Shown here: positions 42,705-61,828 of the stretch, one piece after another
How the letters are laid out: each line of letters starts with the position of its first letter
How positions within the stretch are numbered: the stretch's first letter is position 1
The notes under the pieces: model-generated
What the model was told of the DNA's origin: nothing
The model's input: the letters and a program-made list of their open reading frames with translations, nothing else
Databases searched by the model: none
Program-made: the position numbers and the translations under genes
Source of the DNA: a bacterium
GTDB taxonomy: Bacteria; JAMCPX01
Direction: 5' to 3'
Length of the DNA stretch: 64,000 bases
Assembly (NCBI GenBank): GCA_021787665.1
Contig: JAJYLN010000002.1
Coordinates: forward strand, 189,580-253,579

Positions 42705-42838
42705 GAAACGTTGAATCGTAAACCAGATATTCCTTCATACTCCTGAGGGGGACCGGCATCCCGTTTACCCGTCCCCGTAGCTCCTGCCTATTGATTATTG
42801 TATGCGCTTTTGTTATCTTAACCGTAAGAGGTCAATAC

Positions 42839-44134
42839 ATGAGTCATATTCTATCGGCCGTCACGGGTACGGCAACCGATGAGGTAAGGTTCGTCGCAGA
42901 GAAGGAGGGCGTGCCCATCGGTACAATGATCGAGCGGGTGGGGCGCGGGCGGATCGCCATACTCAAGAACAGGAACCATCGAATAGACCCGGTCGGAATC
43001 GGCGAGGGCCTGTCCGTGAAGATCAACTCGAACATAGGCTCTTCGGAGGACAAGCTGAGTATGGAGGATGAGCTCAAGAAGCTCATGGTGAGCATCGGGT
43101 ACAAGGCCGACGTCGTCATGGACCTCTCAACAGGGGGCAACATCGCGAGGATAAGAAAGGAAATCCTCGACCATTCGACGGTGCCGGTAGGTACCGTCCC
43201 CCTGTACCAAAGCGTGGTGAGCTCAGTCAGGAAGCACCGGTCGATGTTCAAACTCACTATCGACGAGATGTTCGATACGATAGAGGAGCAGGCAGAGCAG
43301 GGCGTGGACTTCATGACCATACACTGCGGCGTTACCATGGAATCCGTCGGGAGGCTCAGGAAGCAGGGCAGGCTGCTCGACGTGGTGAGCAGGGGTGGCG
43401 CTCTGATGATGGAGTGGATGGACTACAACGGTCGGGAGAACCCATTCTACGAGTATTATGACAGGCTCCTCAAGATACTCGCACGTTATGACGTCGTAAT
43501 AAGCCTCGGGGACGGCCTGAGGCCGGGTGCGATCGCGGACGCTACGGACAGGGGGCAAGTGCAGGAGCTGATCATACTCGGGGATCTCGCGAAACGCGCG
43601 GTGGAACAGGGCGTCGGTGTCATGATAGAGGGACCCGGCCACGTTCCCATCGACCAGATAGAGACGAACATCAAGATCGAGAAGCAGCTCTGCAACGGCG
43701 CACCGTTCTATGTGCTCGGTCCCCTGGTGACGGACATCGCGCCCGGCTATGACCATATAACTTCAGCAATAGGCGGCGCTATCGCCGGCATGGCAGGCGC
43801 GGACTTCCTGTGCTACGTTACGCCGGCCGAGCACCTGAGGCTGCCGGATATCGAGGACGTCAAGCAGGGCATCATCGCGTCGAGGATAGCCGCGCACGCC
43901 GCAGACATAGCCCGGGGCGTCAAGGGCGCCCTGGACTGGGACATGAAGATGGCAAAAGCAAGGAAGGCGATGGACTGGGAGTCCCAGTATAGGCTCGCGA
44001 TCGACCCCCAGAAGGCGAGGGAGTACAGGGAGTCCGTGTCGCTGCAGGACACGGACGTCTGCAGCATGTGCGGAGAGTTCTGCCCCATAAAACTGCAGCA
44101 CGCAGAGATCAAGCGCGTAAGAACTATGGTGTAA
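42839..44134 (+). CDS. thiC: Phosphomethylpyrimidine synthase ThiC
   Basis: GTMIERVGRGRIAILKN, DLSTGGNIARIRKEIL, DFMTIHCGVT, GVMIEGPGHVPIDQIETNIKIEKQLC, CSMCGEFCPIK. Confidence 0.94.
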   Translation: MSHILSAVTGTATDEVRFVAEKEGVPIGTMIERVGRGRIAILKNRNHRIDPVGIGEGLSVKINSNIGSSEDKLSMEDELKKLMVSIGYKADVVMDLSTGGNIARIRKEILDHSTVPVGTVPLYQSVVSSVRKHRSMFKLTIDEMFDTIEEQAEQGVDFMTIHCGVTMESVGRLRKQGRLLDVVSRGGALMMEWMDYNGRENPFYEYYDRLLKILARYDVVISLGDGLRPGAIADATDRGQVQELIILGDLAKRAVEQGVGVMIEGPGHVPIDQIETNIKIEKQLCNGAPFYVLGPLVTDIAPGYDHITSAIGGAIAGMAGADFLCYVTPAEHLRLPDIEDVKQGIIASRIAAHAADIARGVKGALDWDMKMAKARKAMDWESQYRLAIDPQKAREYRESVSLQDTDVCSMCGEFCPIKLQHAEIKRVRTMV

Positions 44135-54658: not shown

Positions 54659-55588
54659 ATGGATGAGAAACAGGGTATCGTCATCATTGCAGGACCGACC
54701 GCTACCGGGAAAACCGGGCGCAGCATAGAGCTTGCCCTGTCTTTCAGGGGGGAGGTCGTCAACAGTGATTCCAGACAGGTGTACCGGTATATGGACATTG
54801 GTACCGCAAAGCCGGACCACGCTCAGATGAACGCTGTTCGACACCATATGATAGATATCGTGGATCCCTCCGTGCGATTCAATGCGGCACGGTATATCGA
54901 TATGGCCGATGCGTGCATCGGTGAATTGCGCGACCGGGGGTATGTTCCCTTTATCACCGGCGGGACCGGCCTTTACATAAAAGCCCTGCTGTATGGTCTT
55001 GCGCCGATCCCTCCCATCGACGATGCGGTGAGGAGCGCTATAAGGGATCAACACAGGCTGTATGGAAACGAGGCTTTGTACGAGAGGCTGAAGCAGGCCG
55101 ATCCGGACGATGCGTCCCGTATACGGGTGACGGACAGCTATAGGATCATACGGGCACTCGAGGTATTCACGGCCACCGGCACCTCCTTGCATGCCTATGC
55201 GGCACGGCATGGGTTCTCCAGGAAGAGGTACAGCTATACCTACATTGTCCTCTATGATTCCGACAGAAGCCGGTACCATGCCGCCATAGACGCGCGAACC
55301 GACAGCATGGTCGAGAAGGGACTGATAGATGAGGTTAAGTGGTTGATCGATAAGGGATACGACAGGGACCTTCCTGCAATGAGGACCGTAGGATATACGG
55401 AGATCATTGATTATCTTCATAAGAAGACAGACCTTACTACTGCAGTAGCGCTTATCAAGAAACATACGAAGGCCTATGCGAAAAGACAGGTCACGTGGTT
55501 TAAAGGCATAAAAGATGCATTATGGGTTGATATGCAGGACGGGAACGACCGATTGAACGAGCTCGTAAAGAGGGCAATTCATGCCTAA
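54659..55588 (+). CDS. miaA: tRNA dimethylallyltransferase MiaA
   Basis: [76 protein letters not shown]. Confidence 0.95.
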
Positions 55589-57170
55589 GACGCCCGACGG
55601 CTTCGTAAAACAGTTGAACAGCAAGAAAAAGCAGCTTACGGTGCTCTACGAGGTAAGCAAGCAGCTTGCGTCGACGATAGACTTCAGTGCATCCATCCAT
55701 TCGAGCCTGAAGCTGCTGGCGACGTACCTCGATATCCAGAGGATAGCCCTGTTCGTGCTCGAGCAGGAGACAAAGGAGTTCGTGATACGCTACGCATATG
55801 GCTTTACACAGGAAGAGAGGCAGAAGGGCAGGTACCGGCTGGGTGAAGGGATAACGGGCAAGGTAGCAAAGAGCGGGATACCCATCGTGCTGCCGGACGT
55901 GAAGGACGAGCCGATGTTCATGAACAAGACGGGAAAGGAGATCAAAAAGGACAGCCTGTCGTACATCGCGGTGCCCGTGAAGATAGACAAGAAGGTCGTG
56001 GGCGTTTTGAGCGTGCAGAGGCAACTCACGGACGAGAGCTCCTTCGAGGAAGACGTGAACATACTATCCATGACCGCGACGCTCATAGGCCAGGCCATGG
56101 GTCTGAACAGCGTGATAGAGAAGCAGCGCGAGGACATGGAGCAGGAAAAGTCCGTGCTGATCAGGGAATTGAAGTCCAAATACAGGCCGGAGAACATCAT
56201 CGGCATAAGCCCGGGCATCGAAGAGGTGTTCGAGATCGTCGACCGGGTAAGCCCCACCAGAGCCACGATCCTGCTCAGGGGAGAGAGCGGGACCGGCAAG
56301 GAGCTCGTGGCCAGAGCGATACACTTTCATAGTCCGAGGGCCGGAAAGCCCTTCGTCAAGATGAACTGTGCAGCGCTCCCGGACAACTTGCTCGAGAGCG
56401 AGTTGTTCGGGCACGAGAAAGGGGCGTTTACCGGGGCGTTCGAGGCAAAGAAGGGCAGGTTCGAGCTTGCAAACGAGGGTACGATATTCCTCGACGAAAT
56501 AGGCGAGATTAGCCTCTCAACGCAGGCGAAGCTCCTCAGGGTGATCCAGGAAAAGCGCTTCGAGAGGCTCGGAGGCACGAAGACGATAGAGTCCGATGTC
56601 AGGATTATAGCTGCTACGAACAGCGATCTCGAGAAAGGAATAAAGGAGAGGACGTTCCGGGAGGATCTATATTACAGGTTGAATGTTGTGCCCATATTCA
56701 TGCCCTCCCTGCGCAATCGAAAAGAAGATATTCCGCTGCTCGTGGAGCATTTCCTGCGTCGGTTCAACAAGGAGCACGGCAAGTCTCTTGTCCTGTCCGA
56801 GCGGGCCATGGAGTTTATGATAAAGTATAACTGGCCGGGCAACGTCCGGGAACTCGAGAACATGGTGGAACGTGCGGTCATCATGACGAAAGGCAGCGTC
56901 ATCAACATCAGGGACATCCCGCTGCCGGTCGTAACCGGCGAGCCTGCAAAGGACGAAACTATCGCACCGAAACAGGCTATCTTCGAGCACTACAAGCTCG
57001 ACTCGGTCGTCGAGGACATAGAGAAGAGCAGGATTATGGATGCGCTCAAGAAGACGGGAGGCGTCAAGGCGAAGGCCGCCCGACTGCTCGGCATTACGCA
57101 GAGGCAGCTCGGCTATAAGATACAGAAGTACCGGATCTCGATCGAGGTAGACGCGACAGTCGGCTCGTAA
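55581..57170 (+). CDS. Sigma-54-dependent transcriptional activator, NifA-like (GAF-AAA+-HTH)
   Basis: GAF N-domain; Walker [46 protein letters not shown]-term [32 protein letters not shown]. Confidence 0.94.
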
Positions 57171-57201
57171 CCGGGCACATGATTACATTCATGTCACATA
57201 G

Positions 57202-57237
57202 TAACAGATTTGTAATCGCGATACGACAAAATTGTGG
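57202..57237. promoter_or_regulatory. Paired ACAA-N2-TTGT boxes upstream of glnA
   Basis: TAACAGATTTGTAA (57202-57215) and CGACAAAATTGTGG (57224-57237), centres 22 bp apart. Confidence 0.55.
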
Positions 57238-57320
57238 AATCCGGAGGTGGTGGAAACAAGCAGATGTCGGCGTGAGGTTTCGATGAATGTCGCGCGATAG
57301 TTGTAGTTGACATATAGCGT

Positions 57321-57335
57321 TGGCATGCTATTTGC
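57321..57335 (+). promoter_or_regulatory. Sigma-54 (-24/-12) promoter of glnA
   Basis: TGGCATG-CTAT-TTGC matches TGGCAC-N5-TTGC spacing; 33 bp upstream of the glnA ATG. Confidence 0.8.
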
Positions 57336-57367
57336 TTTAAAATTCATTAAAAAAATGAGGAGGCTCT

Positions 57368-58780
57368 ATGACACCGAAAGAGGTATTGAAGTTTATCTCG
57401 GACAAGAAGATAAGCTATGTAGATCTGAAATTTCTCGACTTCGTGGGGACGTGGCAACATTTCACGATACCCGTGCACGAGTTACAAGAAGATGTCTTTG
57501 AGGAAGGGCTCGGGTTCGACGGCAGCAGTATCAGGGGGTGGCAGCCGATACACGCGAGCGATATGCTCGTATTGCCGGATCCAGCGACCGCGGTCATCGA
57601 CCCCTTTATCCATGAGCCGACCTTGAGCATGATATGCAATATTCAGGACCCCATCACGAAAGAGTACTACACAAGGGATCCGAGGAACATAGCGAGGAAG
57701 GCGGAGAACTATCTGAAGTCCACGGGCATCGGCGATGTGGCCTATTTCGGCCCGGAGCTCGAGTTCTTCATATTCGACGACATCCGCTACAACCAGTCGG
57801 TCAATGAAGGCTATTACTATATAGACTCCGTCGAAGGACAGTGGAACACCGGCAGGGTGGAAAACCCGAATATTGGCTACAAGCCGAGATATAAGGAAGG
57901 CTATTTCCCGGTGTCACCCACGGATTCCCAGACCGATATCAGGAGCGAGATCGTAACGACGATGGAGGCCATCGGACTCAAGATCGAGAAGCACCATCAC
58001 GAGGTTGCGACCGGCGGTCAGGCGGAGATAGACATGGTGTTCAGTCCCTTGCTGAACATGGGCGATATGGTCATGTGGTATAAGCACGTCGTCAAGAACG
58101 TTGCCATGAAGCACAACAGGACGGCCACCTTCATGCCCAAGCCCCTGTACGGCGACAATGGCTCCGGCATGCACACGCACCAGAGCATATGGAAGGCCGG
58201 CAAGCCCCTTTTTGCGGGGAACGGATACGGCGGCATGAGTGAACTCGCCATGCATTACATCGGCGGCATATTGAAACACGCATCTGCTATCTGCGCCTTT
58301 ACCAATCCCACGACCAACTCGTACAGAAGATTAGTCCCGGGCTTCGAGGCGCCGGTGAACCTTGCATATTCGAGCAGGAACAGGTCTGCTTCCATAAGAA
58401 TACCGATGTACTCGCCGAGCCCCAAGTCCAAGAGGATAGAAGTGAGGTTTCCGGACCCCGCGTCGAACAGCTACCTCGCGTTTTCGGCCATGCTCATGGC
58501 CGGACTCGACGGCATACAGAACAAGATAAAACCCGGTGACCCCCTCGATAAGGACATCTACGGCCTTTCCCCGGAGGAGCTGAAGAACGTTCCGAGTACG
58601 CCGGGTAGCCTCGAAGAGGCGCTCAATGCCCTGACGAGAGATCATGAATTCCTGCTGAAGGGTGACGTGTTCACGTCCGATGTGATCGAGACCTGGATCG
58701 ATTACAAGACCAAGGCGGAGATCAACCCTATCAAGCTCAGGCCGGTACCGATGGAGTTCAGCCTGTACTTCGACGCATAG
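57368..58780 (+). CDS. glnA: Glutamine synthetase type I
   Basis: [109 protein letters not shown]. Confidence 0.97.
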
Positions 58781-58807
58781 CTTATTTCAATGATGAGAAT
58801 GATACAA

Positions 58808-58833
58808 GGGCCATGCTGGCTACAGCATGGCCC
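58808..58833 (+). terminator. Intrinsic terminator after glnA
   Basis: GGGCCATGCTG-GCTA-CAGCATGGCCC followed by tttctgtt; 11-bp perfect stem. Confidence 0.8.
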
Positions 58834-58895
58834 TTTCTGTTCATGAGCAGTCCCACCCGTCGTCCTTCATACTGACCCTCTATTTTGTAATACAC

Positions 58896-58930
58896 CCACA
58901 AACTTGTACATTGTGTTTACAAAATTGTTA
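58896..58930. promoter_or_regulatory. Paired ACAA-N2-TTGT boxes upstream of amt1
   Basis: CCACAAACTTGTAC (58896-58909) and TTACAAAATTGTTA (58917-58930), centres 21 bp apart. Confidence 0.6.
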
Positions 58931-58963
58931 CACATTCTCGTCGCCTACAGACAGAAAAGGGGT

Positions 58964-58979
58964 TGGCATACGAAATGCT
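58964..58979 (+). promoter_or_regulatory. Sigma-54-like promoter of amt1
   Basis: TGGCATA-CGAA-ATGCT: correct GG...GC spacing, one mismatch in -12. Confidence 0.65.
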
Positions 58980-59021
58980 CATTATGATCTTGAACTAACG
59001 ATAGGCGAAGGAGAGGAAACC

Positions 59022-60335
59022 ATGAGAAGGCTTCTACCGTATTCGATAGTGTTGTTTGTTTCGTTCATGCTGCCAGCAGCAGCATTTGCCGGCACCGCAG
59101 GTGCAGTTCAGAGCATCAATACCGGCGACACCGCATTCGTTCTCGCCGCAGCCGCGCTCGTCATGCTCATGACGCCTGGACTCGCATTGTTCTATGGCGG
59201 TATGGTACGGAAAAAGAACGTCCTCGCGACCATCATGCAGAGCTTTATCCTCCTTGCAGTCATCAGTATCCAATGGGTCCTGTGGGGATATAGCCTCTCG
59301 TTCGGTCCGGACTTCCACGGGTTTATCGGGAGTCTTGCCTGGATAGGATTGAACCACGTCGGGCTTGCGCCTGACCCGGCCTATGCACCGACGATCCCCC
59401 ACGAGGCTTTCATGATATTCCAGATGATGTTCGCCGTCATAACGCCTGGTCTTATCACCGGGTCGTTTGCCGAACGGATGAAATTCAGCACCTTCTTATT
59501 GTTCGTGGTCCTGTGGTCCACACTCGTCTACGATCCCATAACCCATTGGGTATGGGGGGCCGGAGGATGGCTAAAGTCCATGGGAGTCCTCGACTTTGCC
59601 GGTGGACTGGTCGTCCATCTGAGCTCGGGTATTGCGGCACTCGCCGCTGTGTTCGTCATCGGCAAGAGACATAATTACGGAAGAGAGCCGTACATGCCGC
59701 ACAACCTCACTATGACCATGCTCGGGACAGCACTGCTGTGGTTCGGCTGGTTCGGATTCAACGCCGGCAGCGCACTCTCGGCGGGAGCGATCGCAACATC
59801 GGCGTTTGTTGCAACGAACATAGCGGGTGCGGCCGGGACGCTCGGCTGGATTACGTTCGAATGGATGAAGAAGGGCAAGCCGACCATGCTCGGCGCAGCA
59901 AGCGGCGCCGTCGCCGGTCTCGCGACTATCACACCTGCATCGGGGTTCGTTGGGCCCCTCGCGGCTATCGTCATCGGGTTTGTGGCTGGCGGGATGTGTT
60001 ACTACGCGGTGGGCATCAAGTTCAAGCTCGGGTATGACGATGCCCTCGACGTCGTTGGCGTCCACGGTGTCGGCGGCGTATTGGGCGTACTGGCAACCGG
60101 CATCTTTGCGACCCTCGCGGTCAATGCGGCCGGTGCGAATGGACTCCTGTACGGCAATGCCCGGCAGCTCCTCGTCCAATTGATCGGTGTCGTGGCCATC
60201 GCGGCATACAGTTTTGTCTTTACGATAGGGATCCTGAAGTTACTCGACGCGGTGATGGGCCTGAGGGTGACCCGCGAAGATGAGATTGCCGGACTCGATG
60301 TTGCCCAACACGGCGAAGAAGGGTACAACATGTAG
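59022..60335 (+). CDS. amt: Ammonium transporter (first copy)
   Basis: MRRLLPYS signal peptide; MLMTPGLALFYGGMVRKKNVLATIMQSF, DFAGGLVVHLSSGIAALAAVFVIGKR, GVHGVGGVLGVLATGIFA, C-term QHGEEGYNM. Confidence 0.95.
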   Translation: MRRLLPYSIVLFVSFMLPAAAFAGTAGAVQSINTGDTAFVLAAAALVMLMTPGLALFYGGMVRKKNVLATIMQSFILLAVISIQWVLWGYSLSFGPDFHGFIGSLAWIGLNHVGLAPDPAYAPTIPHEAFMIFQMMFAVITPGLITGSFAERMKFSTFLLFVVLWSTLVYDPITHWVWGAGGWLKSMGVLDFAGGLVVHLSSGIAALAAVFVIGKRHNYGREPYMPHNLTMTMLGTALLWFGWFGFNAGSALSAGAIATSAFVATNIAGAAGTLGWITFEWMKKGKPTMLGAASGAVAGLATITPASGFVGPLAAIVIGFVAGGMCYYAVGIKFKLGYDDALDVVGVHGVGGVLGVLATGIFATLAVNAAGANGLLYGNARQLLVQLIGVVAIAAYSFVFTIGILKLLDAVMGLRVTREDEIAGLDVAQHGEEGYNM

Positions 60336-60399
60336 GGTCTGACCATCCCCCAAAGGGCGATCCATCGAAGCGCCCCTGCAGCCCTATTCTGTTATACCC

Positions 60400-60433
60400 T
60401 TACAAACTTGTAACCAAAACAATACACAATTGA
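60400..60433. promoter_or_regulatory. ACAA-N2-TTGT box plus weaker second box upstream of amt2
   Basis: Perfect palindrome TTACAAACTTGTAA (60400-60413); degenerate ACACAATTGA (60424-60433) 22 bp centre-to-centre. Confidence 0.5.
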
Positions 60434-60464
60434 TGCATGCCAGCAGGGAATCCGCTGGCATGCA
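60434..60464. promoter_or_regulatory. Perfect 11-bp inverted repeat overlapping the amt2 -24 element
   Basis: TGCATGCCAGC-N9-GCTGGCATGCA. Confidence 0.6.
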
Positions 60465-60471
60465 AATTGCA
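60456..60471 (+). promoter_or_regulatory. Sigma-54 (-24/-12) promoter of amt2
   Basis: TGGCATG-CAAA-TTGCA, strong match to the -24/-12 consensus. Confidence 0.8.
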
Positions 60472-60511: not shown

Positions 60512-61828
60512 ATGAAAAAGTTCCTGTCCCCTATGATTTTGTTCTTTGCCGCTCTGCTGATGCCAGCGGTAGCACTTGCATACAGGTCAGGCAATGGGTT
60601 GAAAAACATCAGTGCGGGCGATACGGCCTGGGTGCTTGCCTCCACAGCGCTCGTTATGCTCATGACACCTGGACTCGCGCTGTTCTATGGCGGTATGGTG
60701 CGGAAAAAGAACGTCCTCGCGACCATCATGCAGAGCTTTATCCTCCTCGCGGTCATCAGCATCCAGTGGGTCCTGTGGGGATACAGCCTCTCGTTCGGTC
60801 CGGACATCCACGGCATCATCGGGAGCCTTGCATGGTTCGGGCTCAACCATGTAGGTCTCGCACCTGACCCTGACTATGCCTCCACAATACCGCACCAGGT
60901 GTTCATGATGTTCCAGATGATGTTTGCGGTCATAACCCCGGCGCTTATGACCGGCGCATTCGCAGAACGGATGAAGTTCAAGACCTTTCTCGTGTTCATC
61001 GTGCTGTGGGCGACGCTCGTCTACGACCCGATAGCACACTGGGTATGGGGGGCAGGAGGCTGGATACACCGGCTCGGTGCGCTCGATTTTGCCGGCGGCA
61101 CGGTCGTTCATATAAGCGCCGCCATATCTGCGCTCGCTGCGATCCTCATTATCGGCAAGCGGCACAATTATGGAAAAGAACATAACCCTCCCCATAACCT
61201 TACCATGACCGTACTGGGGGCGTCATTGCTGTGGTTCGGGTGGTTCGGGTTCAACGCCGGGAGTGCGCTGTCTGCTGGTGCGCTTGCGGGATCTGCATTC
61301 ATCGTTACCAATATAGCTGCCGCCGCGGCAACACTCGGATGGCTCTTCACTGAATGGGTACGCAACGGTAAACCGACCATGCTGGGTGCTGTGAGCGGCT
61401 CTGTTGCCGGGCTCGTTGCGATTACGCCGGCATCGGGGTACGTCGGCCCGGTGCCCGCCATGATCATAGGCTTTGTGGCGGGTATGCTATGCTACTATGT
61501 CGTGAGTTTAAAGTCCCGGTTCGGCTATGACGACTCACTCGACGTCATCGGCGTCCATGGCGTCGGTGGTACCTTCGGTGCGCTCGCGACCGGACTTTTC
61601 GCGAGCGTTGCGATCAATGCCGGGGGTGCGAACGGCCTGCTCTACGGTAACCCAAAGCAGCTCATCGTCCAGCTCATAGCGGTCCTCGTAACGATCACGT
61701 ATGGATTTTTGGCGACGTTCATTATCGTCAAAGCAATCGATGTTGTCATGGGACTAAGGGTAACCCAGGAAGAGGAAGTCATGGGCCTCGATATCACGCA
61801 GCACGGCGAAGAAGGCTACAATATGTGA
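60512..61828 (+). CDS. amt: Ammonium transporter (second copy)
   Basis: MKKFLSPMILFFAALLMPAVALA signal peptide; high identity to the first copy over TM core and C-term QHGEEGYNM. Confidence 0.95.
   Translation: MKKFLSPMILFFAALLMPAVALAYRSGNGLKNISAGDTAWVLASTALVMLMTPGLALFYGGMVRKKNVLATIMQSFILLAVISIQWVLWGYSLSFGPDIHGIIGSLAWFGLNHVGLAPDPDYASTIPHQVFMMFQMMFAVITPALMTGAFAERMKFKTFLVFIVLWATLVYDPIAHWVWGAGGWIHRLGALDFAGGTVVHISAAISALAAILIIGKRHNYGKEHNPPHNLTMTVLGASLLWFGWFGFNAGSALSAGALAGSAFIVTNIAAAAATLGWLFTEWVRNGKPTMLGAVSGSVAGLVAITPASGYVGPVPAMIIGFVAGMLCYYVVSLKSRFGYDDSLDVIGVHGVGGTFGALATGLFASVAINAGGANGLLYGNPKQLIVQLIAVLVTITYGFLATFIIVKAIDVVMGLRVTQEEEVMGLDITQHGEEGYNM

Follow-up and report, generated by a model that had tools for sequence, protein, structure and literature searches.

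Tandem ACA-N4-TGT boxes at sigma-54 promoters of a predicted nitrogen regulon next to a gene for a NifA/AnfA-type activator

The window analyzed here is a stretch of 64,000 nucleotides from a contig of an uncultured bacterial lineage, in which the gene for a sigma-54 activator is followed by glnA and by two ammonium transporter genes, amt1 and amt2 (Table 1). The activator sequence scored 562.3 bits against the NCBIfam NifA equivalog, above the cut-off of 528.85 bits, and 355 bits against NtrC, below the cut-off of 558.6 bits; it has a GAF domain where NtrC has a receiver domain, and no protein encoded in the window's genome reached the NtrC cut-off. These results agree with the initial annotation, which had placed a NifA-like activator with a GAFTGA motif at 55581–57170, immediately upstream of glnA. 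No box pair was found ahead of the activator gene. Because this gene also overlaps miaA, the window activator is probably not self-regulated. Elsewhere in the window, a thiC-family gene was located at 42791–44134; no Rfam match was obtained anywhere in the window, and no TPP riboswitch was detected at the gathering score for this gene.

Table 1. Positions of the genes, boxes, and promoter elements described in the text (window coordinates unless a contig is given).
Feature	Position	Strand	Remark
Sigma-54 activator, GAF-AAA+-Fis helix-turn-helix, NifA/AnfA type, GAFTGA	55581–57170	+	predicted to act in trans; the gene shares sequence with the end of miaA
glnA box 1 ACATTCATGT	57185–57194	.	counterpart in 9/9 family genomes; 19 bp to box 2
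glnA box 2 ACAGATTTGT	57204–57213	.	7/8 match
glnA box 3 ACAAAATTGT	57226–57235	.	8/8 match; 22 bp to box 2
glnA sigma-54 -24/-12 element TGGCATGCTATTTGCT	57321–57336	+	
glnA, type I glutamine synthetase	57368–58780	+	
amt1 box 1 ACAAACTTGT	58898–58907	.	
amt1 box 2 ACAAAATTGT	58919–58928	.	21 bp to box 1
amt1 sigma-54 -24/-12 element TGGCATACGAAATGCT	58964–58979	+	
Degenerate remnant ATGATCTTGA of the relatives' box over the amt transcription start	58984–58993	.	5/8 match
amt1, ammonium transporter	59022–60335	+	
amt2 box 1 ACAAACTTGT	60402–60411	.	
amt2 box 2 ACACAATTGA	60424–60433	.	6/8 match; 22 bp to box 1
amt2 sigma-54 -24/-12 element TGGCATGCAAATTGCA	60456–60471	+	
amt2, ammonium transporter	60512–61828	+	
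Outer-membrane-like protein gene, permease-like gene next	G000:C6:76014–76754	-	L264; orthologues L257–L263

The sequences upstream of the three genes were re-read, and the -24/-12 elements previously reported at 57321, 58964, and 60456 for glnA, amt1, and amt2 were found at those positions. The initial annotation had further described two boxes per promoter. This holds for amt1 and amt2, but glnA has three, the box at 57185 having been overlooked. The pair spacings of 22, 21, and 22 bp (glnA, amt1, and amt2) agreed with the coordinates, as did the weak match of the second amt2 box at 60424. The box unit had been given as ACAA-N2-TTGT; the exact form, ACAANNTTGT, indeed occurs at four sites in the 64-kb window, every one at the glnA or amt promoters, but the wider comparison below supports ACA-N4-TGT with an A/T-rich middle as the better consensus. 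Pairs of ACA-N4-TGT spaced 15–33 bp apart were present in the 64-kb window only at the glnA, amt1, and amt2 promoters. None of 5000 dinucleotide shuffles of these three promoters matched the six boxes or the three pairs, for which the expected numbers were 0.26 and 0.000, respectively.

Conservation of the boxes was analyzed in a family sample consisting of the window's genome and eight relatives (nine genomes); the other genomes in the relatives search were related at the domain level only. In this sample, in which several genomes are fragmented and the relatives are not independent (G003 and G008 are nearly identical), 18 promoters contained 48 boxes and 22 pairs, compared with 2.05 and 0.01 expected from shuffles. 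The boxes were kept in 9/9 genomes, representing four genera, while the intergenic flanks drifted, as the proposal that relatives carrying the activator retain them had predicted. Where contigs extended far enough, glnA was immediately preceded by the activator gene or by the part of it that survived assembly. GSFTGA replaces GAFTGA in the activators of three relatives. Since promoters are AT-rich relative to genes, boxes of this composition might be thought to be chance AT-rich matches. However, the observed counts were reached in 0/1000 and 0/5000 shuffles, and the persistence of the boxes in four genera despite drifting flanks refutes this explanation, to which we give next to no credence.

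In the aligned upstream boxes, ACA was present in 45/45 and the final T of TGT in 43/45, the middle was A/T-rich, and the flanks were weak. The invariant ACA and nearly invariant final T indicate that the proper consensus is ACA-N4-TGT. The glnA promoter has three boxes in 9/9 genomes, separated by 19 and 22 bp (23 in G004), although some glnA boxes of G006 and G008 have degenerated. The amt promoters have two boxes 22 bp apart (21 in the window amt1). The earlier spacing of 21–22 bp was thus seen within pairs, but overall the spacings form classes of 19 and 22 bp. Sigma-54 -24/-12 elements were present at all readable promoters of glnA, boxed amt genes, the second PII gene, and the outer-membrane protein/permease operon described below. 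Together with the GAFTGA motif of the activator, these conserved elements suggest that the genome encodes rpoN; a search for the RpoN-box motif in the loci retrieved gave no match and is uninformative, since the rpoN locus was not among them. A conserved TTGACA was also observed approximately 8–10 bp upstream of the glnA TGGC in most genomes read, not in G004 (57300–57320 in the window), and is perhaps an overlapping sigma-70 promoter.

The amt boxes lie closer to the promoter than typical enhancers. Their centers are usually at -49.5 and -27.5 relative to TGGC, or at about -62 and -40; the boxes lie approximately 27–40 bp upstream of TGGC (roughly -52 to -66). In several relatives a further box is found approximately 52 bp downstream, over the expected transcription start; it was recognized in 6/9 amt promoters with 5–6 of the six core bases and is decayed in the window. 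In the amt promoters of G001, G003, G006, G007, and G008, this ACA-N4-TGT-like box is centered approximately 24.5 bp past the start of TGGC. A box in this position could allow repression by the activator or by a competitor. No boxes precede the amt genes that directly follow glnA (G003, G004, and G008), as would be expected if they were co-transcribed with glnA.

Genome-wide searches were performed with exact paired patterns and with two sequence-only covariance models, R1 for the 22-bp pair and R2 for the 19-bp pair, the latter built from the glnA and second-PII pairs; the model E-values are rough. The strict paired pattern gave 31 matches in nine genomes, 30 of which were at activator-glnA-amt loci, while the reversed-pattern control gave four. 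The R1 matches at E < 0.01 were all at the activator-glnA-amt locus, and weak matches occurred near a second PII gene. This glnK-like gene, which is unlinked to the locus, has a sigma-54 promoter and a 19-bp box pair in 7/7 genomes, and no other spacing from 12 to 40 rivalled it. R2 led to an operon, unlinked to glnA and amt, for an outer-membrane-like protein and an amino-acid-permease-like protein. The orthologues of this operon were located by protein search instead of R2, and genomes outside the clear model matches were included; 7/7 readable promoters had the 19-bp pair and a sigma-54 element (shuffle probability ≤0.0025 each). The outer-membrane-like protein has no Pfam match. Its G002 orthologue shares 58% identity with the product of a gene that lies between PII and amt at a Verrucomicrobia locus (L006), which supports a link to nitrogen, and it possibly represents an undescribed nitrogen-linked outer membrane family.

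Once the weak model matches had pointed to these two unlinked loci, the second PII gene and the outer-membrane protein/permease operon, the view of a strictly local regulon was dropped. The first PII gene had neither boxes nor a convincing sigma-54 element in the upstream regions L171, L173, L175, and L176. Twenty other strict sigma-54 sites, including those before lpxC-like, pilin-like, and cytochrome-like genes, had one single box and no exact pair among them. The boxes occurred at the sigma-54 promoters of nitrogen genes, an outcome in favor of the nitrogen regulon proposed in the initial annotation. Because two unlinked promoters carry the same boxes, we regard the genes as a regulon. Judged by motif, the predicted regulon is small and consists of glnA, amt1, amt2, the second PII gene, and the outer-membrane protein/permease operon; the boxes, their spacing and conservation, the promoter elements, and membership by motif are all read from the DNA.

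We compared the boxes with the binding sites of known activators. In Rhodobacter capsulatus, two copies of TAC-N6-GTA lie between anfA and anfH; the AnfA DNA-binding domain binds this sequence, as determined by EMSA and reporter assays, and both copies are required for full activity (PMC7294313). The window resembles this system in three respects: a gene for a GAF-AAA+-helix-turn-helix activator that closely precedes its known or predicted target, two palindromes arranged in tandem in the interval from the activator gene to the sigma-54 promoter, and the AC-N6-GT dyad common to TAC-N6-GTA and ACA-N4-TGT (PMC7294313). The boxes had been proposed to mark a candidate undescribed nitrogen regulon. 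The box is unlike the NtrC and NifA sites, but its dyad matches the published AnfA consensus (PMC7294313), and since ACA-N4-TGT contains AC-N6-GT, the geometry of the box was already known. The window boxes differ in adding A and T within the dyad, and the T/A flanks are partly kept: the full TAC-N6-GTA occurred 22 times and ACA-N4-TGT 63 times, with the AC-N6-GT core and the tandem layout both present. AnfA also differs in its target, the Fe-nitrogenase genes anfHDGK, whereas the predicted targets of the window activator are glnA, amt, and PII. No nifH-family gene scored over the cut-off in the nine family genomes (best 33 of 394 bits). Given that the search revealed no nitrogenase gene, the role of this NifA/AnfA-type activator appears to lie in ammonium assimilation; we found no published account of ACA-N4-TGT in that role.

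The window activator shares with NifA (TIGR01817) the domain plan, a score above the NifA cut-off, a similar recognition helix, and the letters of the TGT and ACA half-sites; it differs in a helix-turn-helix without GWVQ and in the absence of a nifH over the cut-off. Enteric NtrC control of glnA is similar in having a sigma-54 glnA promoter with tandem upstream palindromes, but the window activator has no receiver domain and its promoters have no GCACC-N5-GGTGC. Neither this sequence (best match 7/12 in the window promoters) nor the NifA site TGT-N10-ACA occurred in 32 promoters, and TGT-N10-ACA was found 0 times against 1.9 expected in the 18 family promoters. The earlier statement that the motif is unlike the classical NtrC and NifA sites was therefore borne out. 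Two other systems offer comparisons. DVU1949 of Desulfovibrio vulgaris is, like the window protein, a predicted one-component sigma-54 activator of a nitrogen regulon, there covering nitrogen metabolism and transport in nine operons predicted by comparative genomics (PMC4641369). In the EbpA-RpoN pathway of Leptospira, reviewed in PMC12655853, amtB is sigma-54-dependent and, like growth under nitrogen limitation, is driven by a GAF-type activator; EbpA is predicted to have two GAF domains and is FhlA-like, whereas the window activator is of the NifA/AnfA type, and the text consulted yielded no box consensus for EbpA.

Several findings count against binding of the activator to the boxes: the amt boxes are nearer to the promoter than typical enhancers, two-component sigma-54 activators are also encoded in the genome, and the recognition helix of the activator (TQRQLGYKI) is similar to that of the TGT-N10-ACA-binding proteobacterial NifA (TPRQIAYRI). 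The dimer site of the activator might instead be TGT-N9-ACA or TGT-N12-ACA, an element related to the NifA site that lies between the boxes, and ACA-N4-TGT would then result from the layout of the array. With boxes 19, 21, and 22 bp apart, the TGT/ACA gaps are 9, 11, and 12, and the same gaps separate the TGT and ACA half-sites in the three activator-motif groups of D. vulgaris (PMC4641369). However, N4 is the sole invariant interval, with between-box gaps of 9, 11, 12, 13, 19–20, and approximately 42, and at glnA, glnK, and amt the outer ACA was kept in 34/34 compared with 28/34 for the inner TGT; the outer-membrane protein/permease operon differs. The constancy of N4, and the retention of outer half-sites like inner ones at most promoters, make an element between the boxes unlikely.

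A tree of 47 NifA-like proteins separated three groups, namely the window clade, the nif-linked NifAs of proteobacteria, and a broad clade; support for its deepest forks was weak. The broad clade includes spirochaetes, Verrucomicrobiota, deltaproteobacterial groups, and Bacteroidota, and several of its activators adjoin amt, glnB, or glnD. Eight exact box pairs within 12–45 bp were found at broad-clade loci, seven of them spaced 29–30 bp. No exact pair was found in 145 kb of nif-linked NifA loci or in 504 kb of other sigma-54 activator loci, and the proteobacterial nif loci carry TGT-N10-ACA instead. The box thus accompanies this kind of activator in different phyla, but at different spacings. 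In the sequences compared, GWVQ in the helix-turn-helix is present in the nif-linked NifAs with TGT-N10-ACA and absent from those with ACA-N4-TGT pairs, a correlation confounded by ancestry. Tentatively, and with more doubt than conviction, we suggest that ACA-N4-TGT may be an old, phylum-spanning operator code of non-nif NifA-like activators of ammonium assimilation, read as tandem copies with fixed helical spacings, 19/22 bp for the window lineage and 29–30 bp for spirochaetes, Verrucomicrobiota, and deltaproteobacterial groups. On this view, the TGT-N10-ACA code of proteobacterial nitrogen fixation may be a later specialization tracking the GWVQ change. At one deltaproteobacterial locus (L030:7893–7962), three boxes 29 and 30 bp apart lie directly upstream of the gene for a NifA-like activator, which suggests autoregulation of that activator.

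The boxes could also be sites of a different protein that shares the nitrogen promoters, for example a repressor or a two-component sigma-54 activator. The 6/9 amt promoters with a box over the expected start, where a bound protein would block, and the unusual nearness of the amt boxes to the promoter would suit such a protein, and about nine other activators of the same class, two-component ones among them, are encoded in the window's genome. Yet activators with promoter-proximal or downstream sites exist, FleQ being one. Moreover, the same box pairs stand beside NifA-like activators in unrelated phyla and at none of the sampled loci of other activators, all regulon members were found with sigma-54 promoters, which need such an activator, and the dyad matches the AnfA site. 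We therefore consider a different protein quite improbable.

Taken together, we judge it highly probable that the ACA-N4-TGT boxes serve as operators for a NifA/AnfA-type activator, which has been co-opted for ammonium assimilation and activates a small regulon of nitrogen genes through sigma-54 promoters; binding by the adjacent activator, activation, and the PII/GAF signal are predicted from sequence. One activator dimer would dock on each 10-bp box through its Fis-type helix-turn-helix, a mode for which the dyad geometry and two tandem copies of the AnfA sites provide a precedent. With two or three boxes at intervals of 19 or 22 bp, close to two turns of the helix, neighboring dimers may be brought together and initiate the AAA+ ring, and under nitrogen shortage this ring would open the sigma-54 promoter. 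Nitrogen status would probably be sensed through the GAF domain and PII, and a feedback loop would arise from the membership of the second PII gene in the regulon. The activator contains a single cysteine, at position 263, and no counterpart of the cysteine motif in the GAF domain of AnfA; this single cysteine speaks against iron-sulfur oxygen sensing as in AnfA and many NifAs.

Automatic annotation gives proteins of this class the name NifA, the activator of nitrogen fixation, even where the lineage has no nitrogenase. A defined box, a spacing rule, and a target list would allow prediction of the regulon in uncultured phyla and correction of the NifA annotation. It would then be testable how one helix-turn-helix family reads TGT-N10-ACA in one clade and ACA-N4-TGT elsewhere.

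A separate observation concerns lpxC. The two genomes of the genus each have an lpxC-like gene with the strict sigma-54 consensus TGGCAYGATGATTGCT approximately 30 bp ahead of it (L268 in G000:C19 and L271 in G001:C10), and a sigma-54 lpxC promoter has been proposed in Leptospira (PMC12655853).
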